This document shows positions 14,626 to 62,215 of a stretch of DNA of 64,000 nt, one piece after another. The notes beneath the pieces were generated by a model. The model ran no database searches. It was not told the origin of the DNA and saw nothing but the letters and a program-made list of their open reading frames with translations. Both the position numbers and the translations under genes were made by a program. Within the stretch, counting starts at the first letter, position 1. Every line of letters starts with the position of its first letter. The stretch spans positions 15,550,042-15,614,041 of the forward strand of contig CM055272.1 of NCBI GenBank assembly GCA_029237695.1, given 5' to 3'. Source of the stretch: Conchocele bisecta. Taxonomy: Eukaryota; Mollusca; Bivalvia; Lucinida; Thyasiridae.

Positions 14626-14752
14626 GCTGGCTATGCGGGAAAGAGGCGCTATACATGGAGTCTCTGTCCACCGACCAGGTGGCCGAGGATTGCTGTAAAG
14701 TCCTCAAGACGTTTCTCAAGAAAGACATTCCGCTGCCGTCCCGCGTTCTCAG
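14626..14752 (+). CDS. Polyamine/spermine oxidase, internal exon
   Basis: 127 nt, preceded by ACTTACAG and followed by GTAAGC. Frame enters at phase 1 and leaves at phase 2, completing G with the upstream exon, then WLCGKEALYMESLSTDQVAE... ending LPSRVL. The WxxGxEALxME and D/EQVAEDC pattern matches the part of SMOX/PAOX that lies between the substrate domain and the C-terminal FAD domain. Junction residues fit both sides. It sits between a retroposon ending 10 bp upstream and a family C/F nest starting 57 bp downstream. A 63-codon open frame across it at 14611 is in the wrong frame. Confidence 0.94.
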
Positions 14753-16330: not shown

Positions 16331-16594
16331 TAAATTCAAATGGAAATAACAATCCCTCTGTGCATGCATATGCACCTGTTTGTTTGTTTGTTGGGCCACA
16401 AATATTGGGCAATAATCCAATTCAACTCCCAGGTAACAAAAGACCTAGCAGTACAACCCGGTATTACATTAACTGTAAATTTCCAGGCCCAATTTCTATA
16501 TATAATAATTATACAAGTCAGTATGCAGGCTTATATTCCACTACATAATTCAAAGAAGATATGGACTTACTTTGTGTAAGCTGAATATAAATAT

Positions 16595-16957
16595 GACACG
16601 ATTGTGTGCATGTCACAATATGGAACAGAACGCTCTGCTCCCGTCCTATTCTCTTCATGTTGCCTTACAAGTTATATGTATCTGTAACGGGAGAAATGGG
16701 GCTTATGGGTTTTGCGACCAGTGTAGATCCCGATCAGCCTGTGCATCCGCACAGTCTGACACGATTGTGTGCATGTCACAATATGGAACAGAACGCTCTG
16801 CTCCAGTCCTATTCTCTTCATGTAGCCTTACAAGTTATATGTATCTGTGACGGGAGAAATGGGGCTTATGGGTTTTGCGAACAGTGTAGATCCCGATCAG
16901 CCTGTGCATCCGCACAGTCTGATCGGGATCTGCACTGTTCGCCATTCCATCATTGAA
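16595..16957. repeat. 163-bp tandem duplication including a family E hairpin
   Basis: GACACGATTGTGTGCATGTC starts at 16595 and 16758. Copy 1 stops in the E hairpin loop (CCGCACAGTCT). Copy 2 goes on through the full hairpin GCGAACAGTGTAGATCCCGA ... GATCGGGATCTGCACTGTTC. Confidence 0.9.
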
Positions 16958-17204: not shown

Positions 17205-18595
17205 TTAGCGCACCTTCCGAAGGAAGAAGTGCTTATGGCATACCCTCGGCGTCGTAAGCGTCCGTCTGTCTGTCCATCCGTCCGTCCGGGCACTCATTAG
17301 GGTACTTATGGGGTAGGGGGCGTGGCCTAAGACAATAGAAGACAATGGAACTTATTCCGTACCCCGTAAGCCTATTGTGTCTTACGGGGTATTTCCTTTG
17401 ATCTTTTATATAGCAAGTACCCCCTAAGGTCCGAAATGTAAGTTCGTCCGTCCGTCCGTCCGTCCGTCTGTCTGCCTGCCTGCCTGCCTGCATGTTTGTC
17501 TGTCTGTCTGTATGTCTGTCTTCAAAAATTATCTATATTTTCTGTTTCCTTGCTTGATTTCCAAGGGTCGTCTACTGCGCTGTGGCAAATCCACGTCCGT
17601 CCCGCCCCTTCTAAGCCCAGGGTCAAGGTCACATACTTTGTGCATCCCGAAACCTTAACGCTCGGGTAAATGGCCTATATTTTCTGTTTCCTTGCTTGGA
17701 TTTACTTCATATCTCACACACGCATTGCTCCAAGGGTCCTCTACTGTGCTGTTGCAAATCCACGTCTGTGTCGTCCCTTCTAAGCCCAGGGTCAAGGTCA
17801 CATACTTTGTGCATCCCGAAACCTTAACGCTCGGGTAAATGCCCTATATTTTCTGTTTCCTTGCTTGGATTTGCTTCATATTTCACACACGCATTGCTCC
17901 AAGGGTCCTCTACAGCGCTGTTGCAAATCCACGTCCGTGCCGCCCCTTCTAAGCCCAGGGTCAAGGTCACATACTTTGTGCATCCCGAAACCTTAACGCT
18001 CGGGTAAATGGCCTATATTTTCTGTTTCTTTGCTTGGATTTACTTCATATCTCACACACGCATTGCTCCAAGGTTCCTTAACTGCTCTGTGGCAAATCCA
18101 CGTTCGTCCCGCCCCTTCTAAGCCCAGGGTCAAGGTCACATACTTTGTGCATCCCGAAACCTTAACGCTCGGGTAAATGGCCTATATTTTCTGTTTGCTT
18201 GCTTGGATTTGCTTCATATTTCACACACGCATTGCTCCAATGGTCCTCTACTGCGCTGTGGCAAATCCACGTCCGTCCCGCCCCTTGTAAGCCCAGGGTC
18301 AAGGTCACATACTTTGTGCATCCCGAAACCTTAACACTTGGGTAAATGGCCTATATTTTCTGTTTCCTTGCTTGGATTTGCTTCATATTTCACACACGCA
18401 TTTCTCCAAGGGTCCTCTTCCTCTGCTAAGCCCAGGGTCAAGGTCAAATACTTTGTATCTCGAAACCTTAACACGCTCTGGTAAATGGCTCATAAATTTT
18501 GTTTCCCTTATCCAGCACGTTGTGTTTTCAAATGTGCCCTCGGTGCCTTTGCTGTCACCGGGCACGCTTCATTGTCCTCTGACAACTCTTGTTAT
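17205..18595. repeat. K-type element with a 169-bp tandem array
   Basis: 5' end TTTTTAGCGCACCTTCCGAA and GTGCTTATGGCATACCCTCG; 3' end CTCTGACAACTCTTGTTATT. CATCCCGAAACC occurs at 17643, 17812, 17981, 18150 and 18319, exactly every 169 bp. Units also hold GCCCAGGGTCAAGGTCACAT. No protein is encoded. Confidence 0.92.
17448..17522. repeat. GTCC/GCCT/GTCT microsatellite
   Basis: (GTCC)n passes into (TGCC)n and (GTCT)n, a compound tetranucleotide tract. Confidence 0.9.
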
Positions 18596-21311: not shown

Positions 21312-22530
21312 ATACTTGGTGCTTCAAAAACTTTAACGCTCAGGTAAATATCTTATAATTTCTGTTCCCTTTCACGGATCGGCTTCATACTTCATATACG
21401 CATTGCTCTAATGGTCCTTTACCGCCTTGTGCCAAATCTACGTTTATCCTGCCCCCGCCAAGCCCAGGGTCAAGGTCACATACTTGGTGCTTCAAAAACT
21501 TTAACGCTCGGGTAAATATCTTATAATTTCCGTTTCTTTCCACGGATCAGCTTCATACTTCATATACTCATTGCTCTAATGGTCCTCTACTGTCCTGTGC
21601 CAAGTCCACGTTCGTCCTGCCCCCGCCAAGCCCAGGGTCAAGGTCACATACTTAGTGCTTCAAAAACTTTAACACTCGGGTAAATATCGTATAATTTCTG
21701 TTTTCTTTCACGGATCAGCTTCATACTTTCATATACGCATTGCTCTAATGGTCCTTTACTGCCTTGTGCCAAATCTACGTTTGTCCTGCCCTGCCAAAGC
21801 CAGGGTCAAGGTCACATACTTGGTGCTTCAAAAACTTTTAACGCTGGGTAAATCTTATTTATAATTTCTGTTTCCTTCCACGGATCAAGCTTCATACTTC
21901 ATATACGCATTGCTCTAATGGTCCTCTACTGTCCTGTGCCAAATCCACATTTGTCCTACCTCCTCCAAGCCCAGGGTCAAGGTCACATACTTAGTGCTTC
22001 AAAAACTTTAACGCTCAGGTAAATATCTTATAATTTCTGTTTTCTTTCACGGATCAGCTTCATACTTCATATACGCATTGCTCTAATGGTCCTCTACCGC
22101 CCTGTGCCAAATCCACGTTCGTCCTGCCCCCGCCAAGCCCAGGGTCAAGGTCACATACTTGGTGCTTCAAAAACTTTAACGCTCAGGTAAATATCTTATA
22201 ATTTCTGTTCCCTTTCACGGATCAGCTTCATACTTCATATACGCATTGCTCTAATGGTCCTCTACTGTCCTGTGCCAAATCCACGTTCGACCTGCCCCCG
22301 CCAAGCCCAGGGTCAAGGTCACATACTGAGTGCTTCAAAAACGTTAACGCTGACAGGTAAATATCTTATAATTTCTGTTTTCTTTCACGGATCAGCTTCA
22401 TACTTCATATACGCATTGCTCTAATGGTCCTCTACTGTCCTGTGCCAAATCCACGTTTGTCCTGCCCCCGCCAAGCCCAGGGTCAAGGTCACATACTTGG
22501 TGCTTCAAAAACTTTAACGCTCAGGTAAAA
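21312..22530. repeat. 168-bp tandem array, right part, eight units
   Basis: GTGCTTC positions 21319, 21487, 21655, 21823, 21994, 22162, 22330 and 22500 give spacings of 168-171. Units share GCCCAGGGTCAAGGTCACAT and CGCATTGCTCTAATGGTCCT with the 17-kb array. Confidence 0.94.
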
Positions 22531-35811: not shown

Positions 35812-37242
35812 CAATATACCCACTTTCCCCAAATGCTAAGTCCGAAAGGGGGAGGTAATCCATGATGGAGGGTCGGATAAAAAATCCGAATTCACTTTGC
35901 GCATCAGCACATCAAAACGAAGCTACGAACCAAATATCAGACGTGTAGGTATTAAGGGGAAAAAGTTGATCGACCTACGAGGAAAAATAGTGAAATTCTA
36001 AGTCCGAAAGGGGGAGATAATCCATGATGGAAGGTCCGATCAAAAATCGGAATTCACTTTGCACATCATAACGAAGCTACATATCAAATATCAGAAATGT
36101 AGGTATTAAGGTGAGAAAGTTTTTCGACTTACAATGAAAAATAGGGAAATTGTGAGTCCGAAAGGGGGAGATAATCCATGATGGAGGGTCGGATCAAAAA
36201 TCCGAATTCACTTTGCACATCTGCACATGATAACGAAGCTACATACCAAATATCAGGCGCGTAGGTATGAAGGTTGAAAAAGTTTTTACGAGTTACAAGG
36301 AAAAAATGGGAAATTGTGAGTCCGAAAGGGGGAGATAATCCATGATGGAGGGTCGGATCCAAAAATCCGAATTCACTTTGCGCATCTGCACATGATAACG
36401 AAGCTACATAGCAAAATATGAGGCACGTAGGTATGAAGGTGAAAAAGTTTTTTCGAGTTACAAGGAAAAAATGGGTAAATTGTGAGTCCGAAAGGGGGAG
36501 ATAATCCATGATGGAGGGTCGGATCAAAAATCCGAATTCACTTTGCGCATCTGCACATGATAACGAAGCTACATAGCCAATATGAGGCGCGTAGGTATGA
36601 AGGTGAAAAAGTTTTTCTAGTTACAAGGAAAAAATGGAAATTGTGAGTCCGAAAGGGGGAGATAATCCATGATGGAGGGTCGGATCAAAAATCCAAATTC
36701 ACTTTGCGCCATCTGCACATGATAACGAAGCTACATACCAAATATCAGGCGCGTAGTAGATGAAGGTGAAAAAGTTTTTTCGAGTTACAAGGAAAAAATG
36801 GGAAATTGTGAGTCCGAAAGGGGGAGATAATCCCATGATGGAGGGTCGGATCAAAAATCCAAATTCACTTTGCGCATCTGCACATGATAACGAAGCTACA
36901 TACCAAATATCAGGCGCGTAGGTATGAAGGTGAAAAAGTTTTTCGAGTTACGAGGAAAAAATGGGAAATTCTGAGTCCGAAAGGGGGAGATAATCCATGA
37001 TGGAGGGTCGGATCAAAAATCCAAATTCACTTTGCACATCTGCACATGATAACGAAGCTACATACCAAATATCAGGCGCATAGGTATGAAGGTGAAAAAG
37101 TTTTTCGAGTTACAAGAACGTGACGGACGTACGGATCGGACGTACGGACGTACGGACGGGGACGGACACCCGTGACGAAAACAATATACCCGTTTTTTTT
37201 TACAAAAAAAGTGGGTATAATTACAAAAAAAGTGGGTATAAT
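35812..37242. repeat. Element with 163-bp tandem array, eight units
   Basis: AGTCCGAAAG at 35839, 36001, 36155, 36319, 36485, 36646, 36811 and 36974 (spacing 154-166). Units hold GGGGGAGATAATCCATGATG and CACATGATAACGAAGCTACA. Ends AATATACCCACTTT and AAAGTGGGTATA are inverted, and an ACGTACGGACGG tract closes the array. Confidence 0.9.
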
Positions 37243-54870: not shown

Positions 54871-54992
54871 TATTATTGCTAAAAAAATGTGCTGAATTAA
54901 CATTTTTGTGCTCTCATACTACAGTTTGTTAAGACTTGTGCCATAATATCGTAGAACGTCTCCTAACCGGATGCCCCAAACTTTCCTCGCTG

Positions 54993-55295
54993 TAGCCTAT
55001 TTCATCAACATTGCAAAGTATACTTTACTAGCAAAGTATACTTTGAGGGAGTAATCATTTATTTTTCCTGAAATGCATTATTTCATATAGAACTAACAAA
55101 TGCATATATTTCATGATTAAAAGTATGCAGAATTATTATACTGAATTTATTACATTATCACAGCCAAATTGGCTGTGATAATGTAATAAATTCAGTATAA
55201 TAAAAATTAATAAATTTATCATAAAATTGAAAATTTCTCCCTCCAAGTATACTTTGCTACTAAAGTATACTTTGCAATGTTGATGAAATCGGCTA
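54993..55295. mobile_element. Family F MITE, perfect CTG duplication, 30 bp before exon 3
   Basis: TAGCCTATTTCATCAACATT to AATGTTGATGAAATCGGCTA, with CTG at 54990-54992 and 55296-55298. Central palindrome CACAGCCAAATTGGCTGTG. Confidence 0.92.
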
Positions 55296-55325
55296 CTGAT
55301 CAATTGTATGTGTTGTTTGTTTCAG

Positions 55326-55443
55326 GACGCGCTGGGGGAACAATCAGCACACGCGTGGTGCCTACTGTTACATCCAGGTCGGCTCGACTATAGCCGACGT
55401 CGAAACCCTCACCGAGCCCATCAATGATACTGCTTCCGGCAAG
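55326..55443 (+). CDS. Polyamine/spermine oxidase, internal exon
   Basis: 118 nt after TTTGTTTCAG and before GTAATT. Phase 2 entry completes an R codon with the previous exon, then TRWGNNQHTRGAYCYIQVGS and IADVETLTEPINDTASGK, leaving in phase 0. The RxW...TRGAY/SYxxVGS block is one of the most conserved stretches of SMOX/PAOX enzymes, near the FAD and substrate channel. The final GEA...STTHGA block of the family is expected in a later exon. I did not find it before 64000. The exon tail and donor are repeated twice downstream (see finding). Confidence 0.94.
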
Positions 55444-55690
55444 GTAATTGTCTTACCACAAGTATTACATATAGGGTTAGGGTTTTTGTAGGCAAGTATT
55501 ACATATAGCCCAATCATGATACTGCTTCCGGCAAGGTAATTGTCGTACCTAGGTATTACCGCAATTATTACATATAGGTTTAGGGTTATTGTACCTACTA
55601 CATACCGCAAATATTACATATAGCCCATTCATGATACTGCTTCCTGCAAGGTAACTATCGTACCTACTACCACAAATACAACATACATGT
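55414..55690. repeat. Tandem copies of the exon 3 end and splice donor
   Basis: ATGATACTGCTTCCGGCAAG|GTAATTGTC at the exon end recurs with GT at 55536 and, as TTCCTGCAAG|GTAACTATC, with GT at 55651. ATTACATATAG and GGGTTAGGG-like spacers separate them. Confidence 0.92.
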
Positions 55691-55828
55691 AGCTGTGCTA
55701 ACGAAAGCGTTAACTAAGTGACACTATACCATAAAAACAACATTCAAAATTGCAGTTATAACATTGGTTTGTAGCTAGTGGAGACATGTTACAGCATTAA
55801 TGACACTGCATGCCACAAGGCAACTTAT

Positions 55829-56206
55829 GGAGCCCCACAAGGGACGTAGAATTCTTTTTTTTTATTAATTTGTTCCCATAAAATAACAATTTGTTCCCTC
55901 AATTTAACAATTTGTTCTCACAAATTAACAATTTGTTCCCACAAATTAACAATTTTTTCCCTCAATTTAACAATTCGTTCCCACGAAGTAACAACGGGAA
56001 CGAATTGTTATATCGCGGGAACGAATTGTTAATTCGAGGGAACAAATTGTTAAATTGAGGGATCAAATTGTTAATTCGAGGGAACAAATTGTTATATCAT
56101 GGGAACGAATTGTTAATTCTAGGGAACAAATTGTTAAATTGAGGGAAGAAACTGTTATTTTGTGGGAACAAATAAATAAAAAAATCCATGTCCCCTGTGG
56201 GGCTCC
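55829..56206. repeat. Inverted minisatellite element with GGAGCCCC ends
   Basis: GGAGCCCCACAAGGGAC at the left and GTCCCCTGTGGGGCTCC at the right are inverted. The left arm is about six 18-21 bp units AACAATTTGTTCCCACAAAT. The right arm is about eight units in the opposite sense, GGGAACAAATTGTTAAATTG. The arms meet near 55992. Confidence 0.92.
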
Positions 56207-56740: not shown

Positions 56741-57005
56741 ATACCTTAATTAAATATATATGGGAACCACATGTTCAATTGACAAGCAAAATGCATCTGG
56801 TGTCTTGAAAAAGTATGTCCGTTCGTCACGCGGTTGAAGTTTTTGTTTGAGCTTGTATCTCAAGGGATCGTAGCTAGTTATTTCCCTTTGCAAATCAATT
56901 AATAGATATCCAGTCCTTTGCTGTATTTCAGCATTTGTTTCTTACTGAATAGCAGAAAAAATATGTTTTGCAAACAGAGTGGACCCAAATCAGACTGCAC
57001 ATCTG

Positions 57006-57312
57006 TAGCCGATTTCACCAAATTTGCAAAGTATACTTTACTAGCAAAGTATACTTTGAGGGAGAAATCATTAATTTTCCTGAAATGCATAATTTATATA
57101 GAACTAACGACTGTATATATTTGATGATTAAAAGTACATGTATACAGAATTATTATACTGAATTTATTACATTATCACAGCCAAAATGGCTGTGATAATG
57201 TAATAAATTCAGTATAATAAAAATTAATAAATTTATCCTAAAATTGAAAATTTCTCCCTCAAAGTATACTTTGCTAGATAAGTATACTTTGCAATGTTGG
57301 TGAAATAGGCTA
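57006..57312. mobile_element. Family F MITE, complete
   Basis: TAGCCGATTTCACCAAATTT to AATGTTGGTGAAATAGGCTA. CTG at 57003-57005, CGG at 57313-57315. Central CACAGCCAAAATGGCTGTG. Confidence 0.88.
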
Positions 57313-57555
57313 CGGTGCAGTCTGATCTGGATTTACTCTGATTGAAATCACATTAATAAGTGTGACAATATGAATCTGGCAGATAACGCAGTCCCTGATC
57401 AGATTGTACAGACATGTAGGATGACATGGATCAACGCTAGTCGAAAACACTGTTATGACTCCTTTTCACAACAATTCGAGCTATGTTCGCCCTTTTTACG
57501 AACAATAAGGCCCTACAATATACAATTTGGAACGGATTTCTATAAATAAAGTCAA
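57313..57555. repeat. Dispersed repeat, paralogue of 15885-16330 (empty site)
   Basis: GTGCAGTCTGATCTGGATTT, GCAGTCCCTGATCAGATTGT and AACACTGTTATGACTCC mark the uninterrupted equivalent of the C'' insertion site at 16039. Confidence 0.75.
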
Positions 57556-59256: not shown

Positions 59257-59747
59257 CTAGGTACTCAGTGACGTACATAGATCTAAGGTATTTCTGGGTA
59301 CTTAGTGACATACATAGGCATTGCTGTGTACTCAGATACATACATAGACCTTAAGGTATTTCTGAGTACTCGGTGACATACATAGGCATTTCTGTGTACT
59401 CAGTGACATACATAGACCTTAAGACCTTAAAGGCATTTCTGTGTACTCAGTGACATACATAGACCGTAAGGCATTTCTGTGTACTCAGTGACATACATAG
59501 ACCGTAAGGCATTTCTGTGTACTCAGTGACATACATAGACCTTAAGGCATTTCTGTGTACTCAGTGATGTACGTAGACCTTAAGGCATTTCTGTGTACTC
59601 AGTGACGTACATTGACCTTAAGGCATTTCTGTGTACTCGGTGACATACATAGACCGTAAGGCATTTCTGTGTACTCAGTGACGTACATATACCTTAAGGC
59701 ATTTCTGTGTAGTCAGTGACTTACATAGATCTTAAGGCATGTCTGGG

Positions 59748-60072
59748 TACTCCATCATTTCTGAAGCAATTGGGTATTTCAACATTTTAATTGGGTAAAA
59801 TAAAATCACACTACTGTTTACACACAGCAGACAGCAATTATTGAATAGTTTGCTTCATTTGGCATTTCATTAGAATTGTCTCCTTGGATGTGTTTTCATG
59901 GAAAATAAGAAAAATATGCTATATTTGTGGTCTGTTTATTGTTTTCTGCACCATGATAAAGGCACCACAAAATTTGGATTGCTTTTTAATACTCGCTACT
60001 TCTGATTTCAATTGGGGTTTTGGGAATTTTAATTAGGTATTTAAGCAAATACGCAGCTTATCTGGAGCTCTG
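59748..60072. mobile_element. Family C copy, internally shortened
   Basis: TACTCCATCATTTCTGAAGC to CAGCTTATCTGGAGCTCTG; half of the central palindrome is deleted (GTCTCCTTGGATGTG). Confidence 0.82.
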
Positions 60073-60869: not shown

Positions 60870-61570
60870 TTGGTCTCGGATGTGGATGAACTGTCTGAGC
60901 AAAACGATATTGGTACTTTAAGAGCATTTAACGGTAGACTTGTATCAGTTTTCTCAACAACAATATGACCCTATATGCCATTGACATGAAAAAGAATTTA
61001 GAAAAAACAAAAAAAAATTAATATTGAAAAAATAATTAGCGTTGCAAATGCCAGTTTTGCTAAATATAGAATTCATGTTTCCCGCTTCCTGCACTCGCAC
61101 TTAGTAGCCACGTGCCTGTCACAGTTAACATTCAGTTTCCAAATTTTTCAATTCGGTTATTTTTTTATGAACTTGCACGTACATCGTGTGTTATTAAGGT
61201 ACTACTTAGTACCGTGTTTATGGTGATTATATTGACGTGTGCAATGTTGACTTGTATAAAGCTTTTGAAGCATTCTAACCAAGTTTGCCTTTTTGGTGAA
61301 TTACTTTTTATTATTAAATATTTAATATGTGAACTACATGTATACTGCATTGTCTTACTGGTTTGCCCACCCAGTCATGTGCATATGTTCGTTTGAATGT
61401 AGCGCCACCCGTAAACATGTTTTCAAATTACAATACGATTACAAGTTCGGCTGTTTGACACCGAATCGATCATGCACATGCAGTACATGGTGCATGTATA
61501 TGAATTTACATCAACAAGGCTCAGCATCTGGTTCTAAATATAACTTTGTACTTATTGAAACATAAATGAT
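60870..61570. other. Unassigned intronic stretch
   Basis: Open frames of 94 and 78 codons (61112-61565) show no domain and no splice context. Nothing else recognised. Confidence 0.4.
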
Positions 61571-61572
61571 CA

Positions 61573-62215
61573 TAGATATTGGCGAAAACGTAGCAATATG
61601 CGATTAATTGAGACAAAATGATGTGCTTTCATTGGTTGAGAAACTAGGGAAAACAATAAGTATCAGTTATTGTTCACATATTGGAGTTTTAAGGAATTAA
61701 ATGGGAGCGAGCGCTAGCGACCGCAGCATTTATTTCCTGAAAAATCCAATATGTGAACAGTAACATACTTACAGTTCAGCCAAGTGTACACTGCAATGTC
61801 CCATCCAAGTATTGATTTTCCATTTCCTGTCGAACAGTTATTCATTAAATGATTATAGATATTGGCGAAAACGTAGCAATATGTCATTAATTGAGACGAA
61901 ATGATGTGCTTTCATTGGTTGAGAAACTAGGGAAAACAATAAGTATCAGTTATTGTTCACATATTGGAGTTTTAAGGAATTAAATGGGAGCGAGCGCTAG
62001 CGACCACAGCATTTATTTCCTGAAAAATCCAATATGTGAACAGTAACATACTTACAGTTCAGCCAAGTGTACACTGCAATGTCCCATCCAAGTATTGATT
62101 TTCCATTTCCTGTCGAACAGTTATTCATTAAATCTGGTAATAACTAACTGATTGTCGTAAGTGGAGCACAGTGCTGCCCAGCGATTCGCTTAGAAACTAG
62201 GGCAAACAATAAGTC
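61573..62215. repeat. Family J element in 283-bp tandem duplication
   Basis: TAGATATTGGCGAAAACGTA begins at 61573 and 61856. Each unit has the J hairpin (TTATTGTTCACATATTGGAG), loop GGGAGCGAGCGCTAGCGACC and CCATCCAAGTATTGATTTTC. The 3' J body follows only the second unit. Confidence 0.92.

Follow-up and report, generated by a model that had tools for sequence, protein, structure and literature searches.

Three tandem copies of an exon-intron border in a spermine/polyamine oxidase gene of the bivalve Conchocele bisecta

One earlier paper is said to trace human introns to tandem arrays. Duplications that carry AGGT or that cross an exon-intron boundary are demonstrated or proposed sources of introns (PMC4974935, PMC2891723), and human segmental duplications contain internal tandem repeats at exon-intron boundaries, with 162 alignments before manual inspection and 27 intron modifications after it (PMC2812944). 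Tandem AGGT dual-specific splice sites are described in the polyubiquitin gene UBC (PMC10809524). The choice among competing donors has been studied in human genes, where donors of near-equal strength flanked by long introns showed a preference for the upstream one (725 events); in five minigenes carrying a pair of identical strong donors, splicing took place exclusively at the upstream one. When the identical donors were weakened, smaller exons kept the upstream preference and larger exons were skipped, and before the strength filter a downstream preference appeared in every architecture class (PMC9225289). Among the matches listed in the literature on minisatellites at splice donors and on duplicated donors there was no matching case, and 10 matches out of 157 on spermine-oxidase splicing in molluscs included no relevant mollusc case; the matching passages of a paper on polyamine-oxidase evolution contain nothing on intron positions (PMC3517346).

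The locus described here lies in a window of 64,000 nucleotides from Conchocele bisecta (contig CM055272.1, positions 15,550,042 to 15,614,041), and all coordinates below are counted from its first letter. A sequence-only reading of this window had reported that the tail of an exon and its 5' splice site are present three times in tandem, with donor GTs at 55444, 55536 and 55651 and spacings of 92 and 115, and repeat finding and motif scanning returned the same three copies at the same distances. The motif GATACTGCTTCC[G/T]GCAAGGTAA starts at 55426, 55518 and 55633, and copies 1 and 2 reproduce the 27-mer quoted in that reading exactly, whereas copy 3 has three mismatches to it. Within 55326-55850, at offsets of 30-250, the longest exact repeat measures 29 nt, whereas none of 200 first-order Markov samples exceeded 12, so we reject chance similarity and take the copies to be a true duplication. 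The animal's own genome (1.89 Gb in 1196 contigs, all counts being lower bounds) matched the 27-mer, allowing up to three mismatches, at these three places only among those listed, and it matched the 301-nt stretch 55400-55700 at least once, at a single listed place. A dispersed element as the source of the array was rejected on the latter count, itself a lower bound. The array is a nested local duplication, further copies of which were absent from the genome searches (again with counts as lower bounds).

Such a local duplication is of a kind already described. As in the repeats of human segmental duplications, where alternative splicing can follow, the units span an exon-intron boundary and the splice signals are duplicated; those repeats, however, vary in copy number and are supported by RNA, whereas the clam array comes from one assembly and has its extra copies on the intron side (PMC2812944). 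With the intron-gain cases it shares tandem duplication and the AG|GT carried by every copy (here always AAG|GT, i.e., a duplicated AGGT), and the potato duplication also crosses a boundary (PMC4974935). Those cases, including the ones in Drosophila (PMC2891723), gave a new spliced intron, whereas in the clam it is a donor border that was copied, and its copies sit inside an existing intron. UBC too has tandem AG|GT at regular units, but its repeats are coding and its sites are shown to be used, whereas the clam copies are intronic and their sites putative (PMC10809524).

The array runs in the order D1-T1-G1-T2-D2-T3-G2-T4-D3-T5, in which D is the exon-intron border, T an ATTACATAT-type spacer and G either GGGTTAGGGTTTTTGTA or GGTTTAGGGTTATTGTA, all on the + strand. 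The likeness extends to the left of the core quoted earlier (AGCCCA...GTC), so that each D measures 38 nt and holds 29 nt of exon and 9 nt of intron in every copy, i.e., the unit combines exonic and intronic sequence as tandem duplications across an exon-intron boundary do. D1 (55415-55452) comprises the exon tail and the first 9 nt of intron 4 with the true donor GT at 55444, D2 (55507-55544) is the first intronic copy with the decoy GT at 55536, and D3 (55622-55659) is the second, with the decoy GT at 55651; the 29-nt core ATGATACTGCTTCCGGCAAGGTAATTGTC of D1 is identical in D2 (0/29 differences) and differs at 3/29 positions in D3. The spacer of unit 1 (55453-55506) is made of T1 (55453-55473), G1 (GGGTTAGGGTTTTTGTA, 55474-55490) and T2 (55491-55506), and that of unit 2 (55545-55621) of T3 (55545-55576), G2 (GGTTTAGGGTTATTGTA, 55577-55593) and T4 (55594-55621), both spacers being backed by repeat families D4 and D5. 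A diverged final spacer copy, T5 (55660-55692), closes the array, which amounts to a unit of 92 nt and one of 115 nt followed by an incomplete third. Spacer motif T, with up to three mismatches, occurs at four places on the + strand of a 164-kb region (the window plus 50 kb on each side), all of them in the array, and at none on its - strand. A AGGGTTAGGGTT-like motif, formed of two telomere-type repeats, is also seen in each spacer (55473-55490 and 55576-55593), and AGGGTTAGGG was found at 55473 only within the 164-kb region scanned.

Aligned to each other, units 1 and 2 differ in 9/92 columns, plus gaps of 11 and 12 nt, and copies 2 and 3 differ in 5/60 over a 60-nt stretch. Between copies 1 and 2 the D core has 0/29 differences against 6/54 for the rest of the units, a contrast that might point to constraint or conversion at the core; with a Fisher p of 0.087 we make no claim of constraint on the decoy donor. 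The two copy junctions both join ...ACATAT to AGCCCA, and there the exon (GAGCCCA) and the spacer (ATATAGG) share the 2-nt AG, a microhomology that fits slippage or end-joining as a possible origin. The array had been called a minisatellite, a loose term for two units of unequal length and a partial one, at which Tandem Repeats Finder gave no row at a score of 50 or 30.

By homology, the host gene is a spermine/polyamine oxidase. Modeled over the same 164-kb region, it consists of five exons that encode 482 aa in a stop-free frame, the flanks having yielded the ATG exon, the long exon 2 and the last exon, which encodes PVIQFAGEATHPSFYSTTHGALLTGEREAKRILGLYSDAAQ, and exon 3 having been located by motif. 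Exon 1 spans -23813 to -23648, exon 2 -387 to 524 (in the window, 1 to 524), exon 3 (GWLCGKEALYMESLS...RVLR) 14626-14752, exon 4 (118 nt, ending in TRWGNNQHTRGAYCYIQVGSTIADVETLTEPINDTASGK) 55326-55443, and exon 5 100257-100382, with exons 2 to 4 on the + strand. Exon 4 rests on SMOX likeness, the open model and colinearity with relatives; the earlier reading had numbered it exon 3, and it is the third exon inside the window but exon 4 of the five in the gene model. An exon 3 ending at 14737 also keeps the frame (477 aa) and was set aside in favor of 14752 because of the donor CAG|GTAAGC at the latter and the colinearity of the resulting protein with its relatives, a choice by which exon 4 is unaffected. 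The introns flanking exon 4 measure 40,573 nt (14753-55325) and 44,813 nt (55444-100256).

The whole-length homology is accompanied by the amino-oxidase domain PF01593, which scores above cut-off at exons 1 and 2 and is carried by the homologues as well. The model protein matches human SMOX (7oxl) over residues 12-480 with an E value of 1e-105 and the solved peroxisomal N1-acetyl oxidase (5lae) with one of 8.4e-78, and exon 4 by itself resembles 7oxl (E 1.3e-05). Its closest relatives include proteins that are 71-74% identical (the best of them 73-74%) as well as those of the bivalves Mercenaria mercenaria (71%), Potamilus streckersoni (70%), Mya arenaria (68%) and Mactra antiquata (68%). Set beside spermine oxidase and peroxisomal N1-acetyl-spermine/spermidine oxidase, the likeness is whole-length and the model protein is free of unusual features, its substrate being a predicted one. 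Paralogues in the genome other than L015 and L019 were too distant to help in locating the exons of this gene, and two loci that match the C-terminal part (C3 and C16) have long stop-free open frames and no comparable border.

Splicing from donor 55444 gives the whole 482-aa enzyme, colinear with its relatives. The exon 4/exon 5 border is reached by 20 of the 23 aligned relatives (P0028, P0041 and P0068 end before it), and 0 of the 20 have an insertion between the K441 and P442 columns. Donors 2 and 3 were rejected as the true donor, since their use brings in a stop and the relatives are without insertion at the junction. The first in-frame stop past donor 1 is the TAG at 55489-55491 (+ strand), ahead of the second donor as had been claimed. 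Exon 4 is lengthened from 118 nt to 210 nt via donor 55536 and to 325 nt via 55651, and either decoy yields, by computation, one and the same product of 456 instead of 482 aa, in which 441 residues are kept, 15 are added and the final 41 are missing. The border duplication, the extra donors and the predicted truncation described in the sequence-only reading thus stand; its exon number and its minisatellite label do not. If donor 2 were used, the TAG would be 44 nt upstream of the last junction, and if donor 3 were used, 159 nt. By the usual 50-55 nt rule, clear targets of decay would be found only among transcripts spliced at donor 3, whereas those spliced at donor 2 might escape.

We consider it likely that the array is a neutral local tandem duplication across the exon 4/intron 4 border, tolerated since among equal donors the one nearest across the exon is favored. 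A segment starting at 55415, with 29 nt of exon tail, and running into intron 4 would have been duplicated and then copied again, into the intron, the 11- and 12-nt indels arising between units and the copy junctions sharing AG. As copy 1 alone runs on into conserved coding sequence, the exon was probably the source of the copies, and as both exon and intron halves are found in all three, genomic DNA and not mRNA was copied. The copies themselves, the gene model, the effects on the coding sequence and the lack of further hits in the genome searches are results, whereas the direction of copying, the neutrality of the event and the choice of donor are what we infer. Donor 55444 would be the working donor. 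With 40.6 kb of intron on one side and 44.8 kb on the other, exon 4 is probably recognized by exon definition. Of several donors equal in strength, the one at the shortest distance from the acceptor across the exon would be favored, which here is the correct one; exon definition and cross-exon proximity would in this way make the decoys tolerable. A favored correct donor would also explain the persistence of the copies.

The computed U1 pairing of the true donor and of the two extra donors made by the duplication is nearly equal (-6.6, -6.6 and -6.5 kcal/mol). The donors of exons 1, 2 and 3 pair at -8.8, -8.2 and -11.0 kcal/mol, which makes the true donor at 55444 the weakest of the gene's four by this measure; this counts against the account above, as does the skipping of larger exons with weakened donors in the human study. 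A GT inside exon 4 (CAGGTCGGC, 55378) pairs at -6.9, matching the border donors. On the human precedent for donors of near-equal strength the decoys are predicted to be mostly ignored, the rule of donor choice being one that comes from human genes and is applied here to a bivalve gene. The downstream preference seen before filtering in those same human data (PMC9225289) argues against a simple reading. The array may be regarded as a natural counterpart of a test construct, with one donor repeated behind one exon, and RNA data could use it to reveal whether the human-derived rule of cross-exon proximity applies in a bivalve.

It is unlikely, in our estimate, that the decoys are really used to make an unproductive or truncated isoform, with copy number tuning the dose of the enzyme. 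Both decoys nearly match the true donor in strength and lead to the same 456-aa product, and donor 1 has a low strength compared with the gene's other donors; cross-exon proximity, however, favors donor 1, and since the best database relatives are about 73% identical, no transcript product of the species itself was recognized among them.

Recursive splicing is reportedly the subject of a 2026 paper, and the AAG|GT copies might be read as dual-specific or recursive sites, at which the units of 92 and 115 nt would be removed as small introns and the donor rebuilt each time, leaving a correct mRNA. AG|GT is present in all three copies, and the pyrimidine fractions before D2 and D3 (0.59 and 0.65) fall within the range of the gene's four acceptors (0.53-0.82), but such an acceptor would have AAG at its end and pyrimidine runs of just 5 and 6 nt, and we regard this reading as very improbable. 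The same slim chance attaches to an extended form of it, in which the AAG|GT borders would act as a splicing array heading the 44.8-kb intron, with units removed recursively, failure producing the truncated and partly decay-prone isoform, and copy number setting the dose of this polyamine-catabolizing enzyme.

The extra donors might alternatively be of help, in that clustered U1-binding sites would reinforce the recognition of a weak donor that opens a very long intron. The true donor is indeed the weakest of the four and sites of equal U1 pairing follow within 207 nt downstream, yet the local duplication rate explains the copies without selection and a chance match of equal strength exists inside exon 4 (-6.9 at 55378), so that we give this reading scarcely any weight. 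An assembly artefact is the least credible account, since the copies differ in spacing (92 and 115), in 3/29 core bases and by indels of 11 and 12 nt, differences that simple misassembly of one sequence would not yield.

A neutral duplication is also supported by how common such copies are here. At least one copy of the local 27-mer (up to three mismatches, 30-250 nt to either side) was found for 8.5% of window positions and two or more for 4.0%; when the count is limited to downstream copies and taken over the 164-kb region, the values are 5.0% and 1.8%. Among the gene's eight splice borders, a small sample, one has local 27-mer copies, namely this donor. With 4% per border and the borders treated as independent, two copies would be expected at one or more of eight borders with a probability of about 28%. 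Given this background and one border in eight, chance placement is credible, and the location of the array is unsurprising for this genome.

The donor array sits between two MITE-like elements. The first (54992-55296) is palindromic, with ends GTAGCC...GGCTAC and long inverted arms, and its end is 29 nt upstream of exon 4, which leaves the acceptor and any branch point squeezed in between, or else the branch point inside the element; a related copy is found at 57005-57313. The second (55829-56206) has the ends GGAGCCCCAC.../...GTGGGGCTCC and is filled with inverted 21-nt tandem repeats. Elsewhere in the introns of the gene there are long-unit tandem arrays at 16594-16922 (unit of ~163 nt), 17560-18418 (~169 nt), 21312-22529 (~168 nt), 35839-37116 (~162 nt) and 61563-62133 (~283 nt), and intron 4 also holds a 38-nt minisatellite (AGGCATTTCTGTGTACTCAGTGACATACATAGACCTTA, ~11.5 copies) at 59286-59752. 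A CCAA-type tetranucleotide run, at about -500 to -400, directly precedes the acceptor of exon 2.
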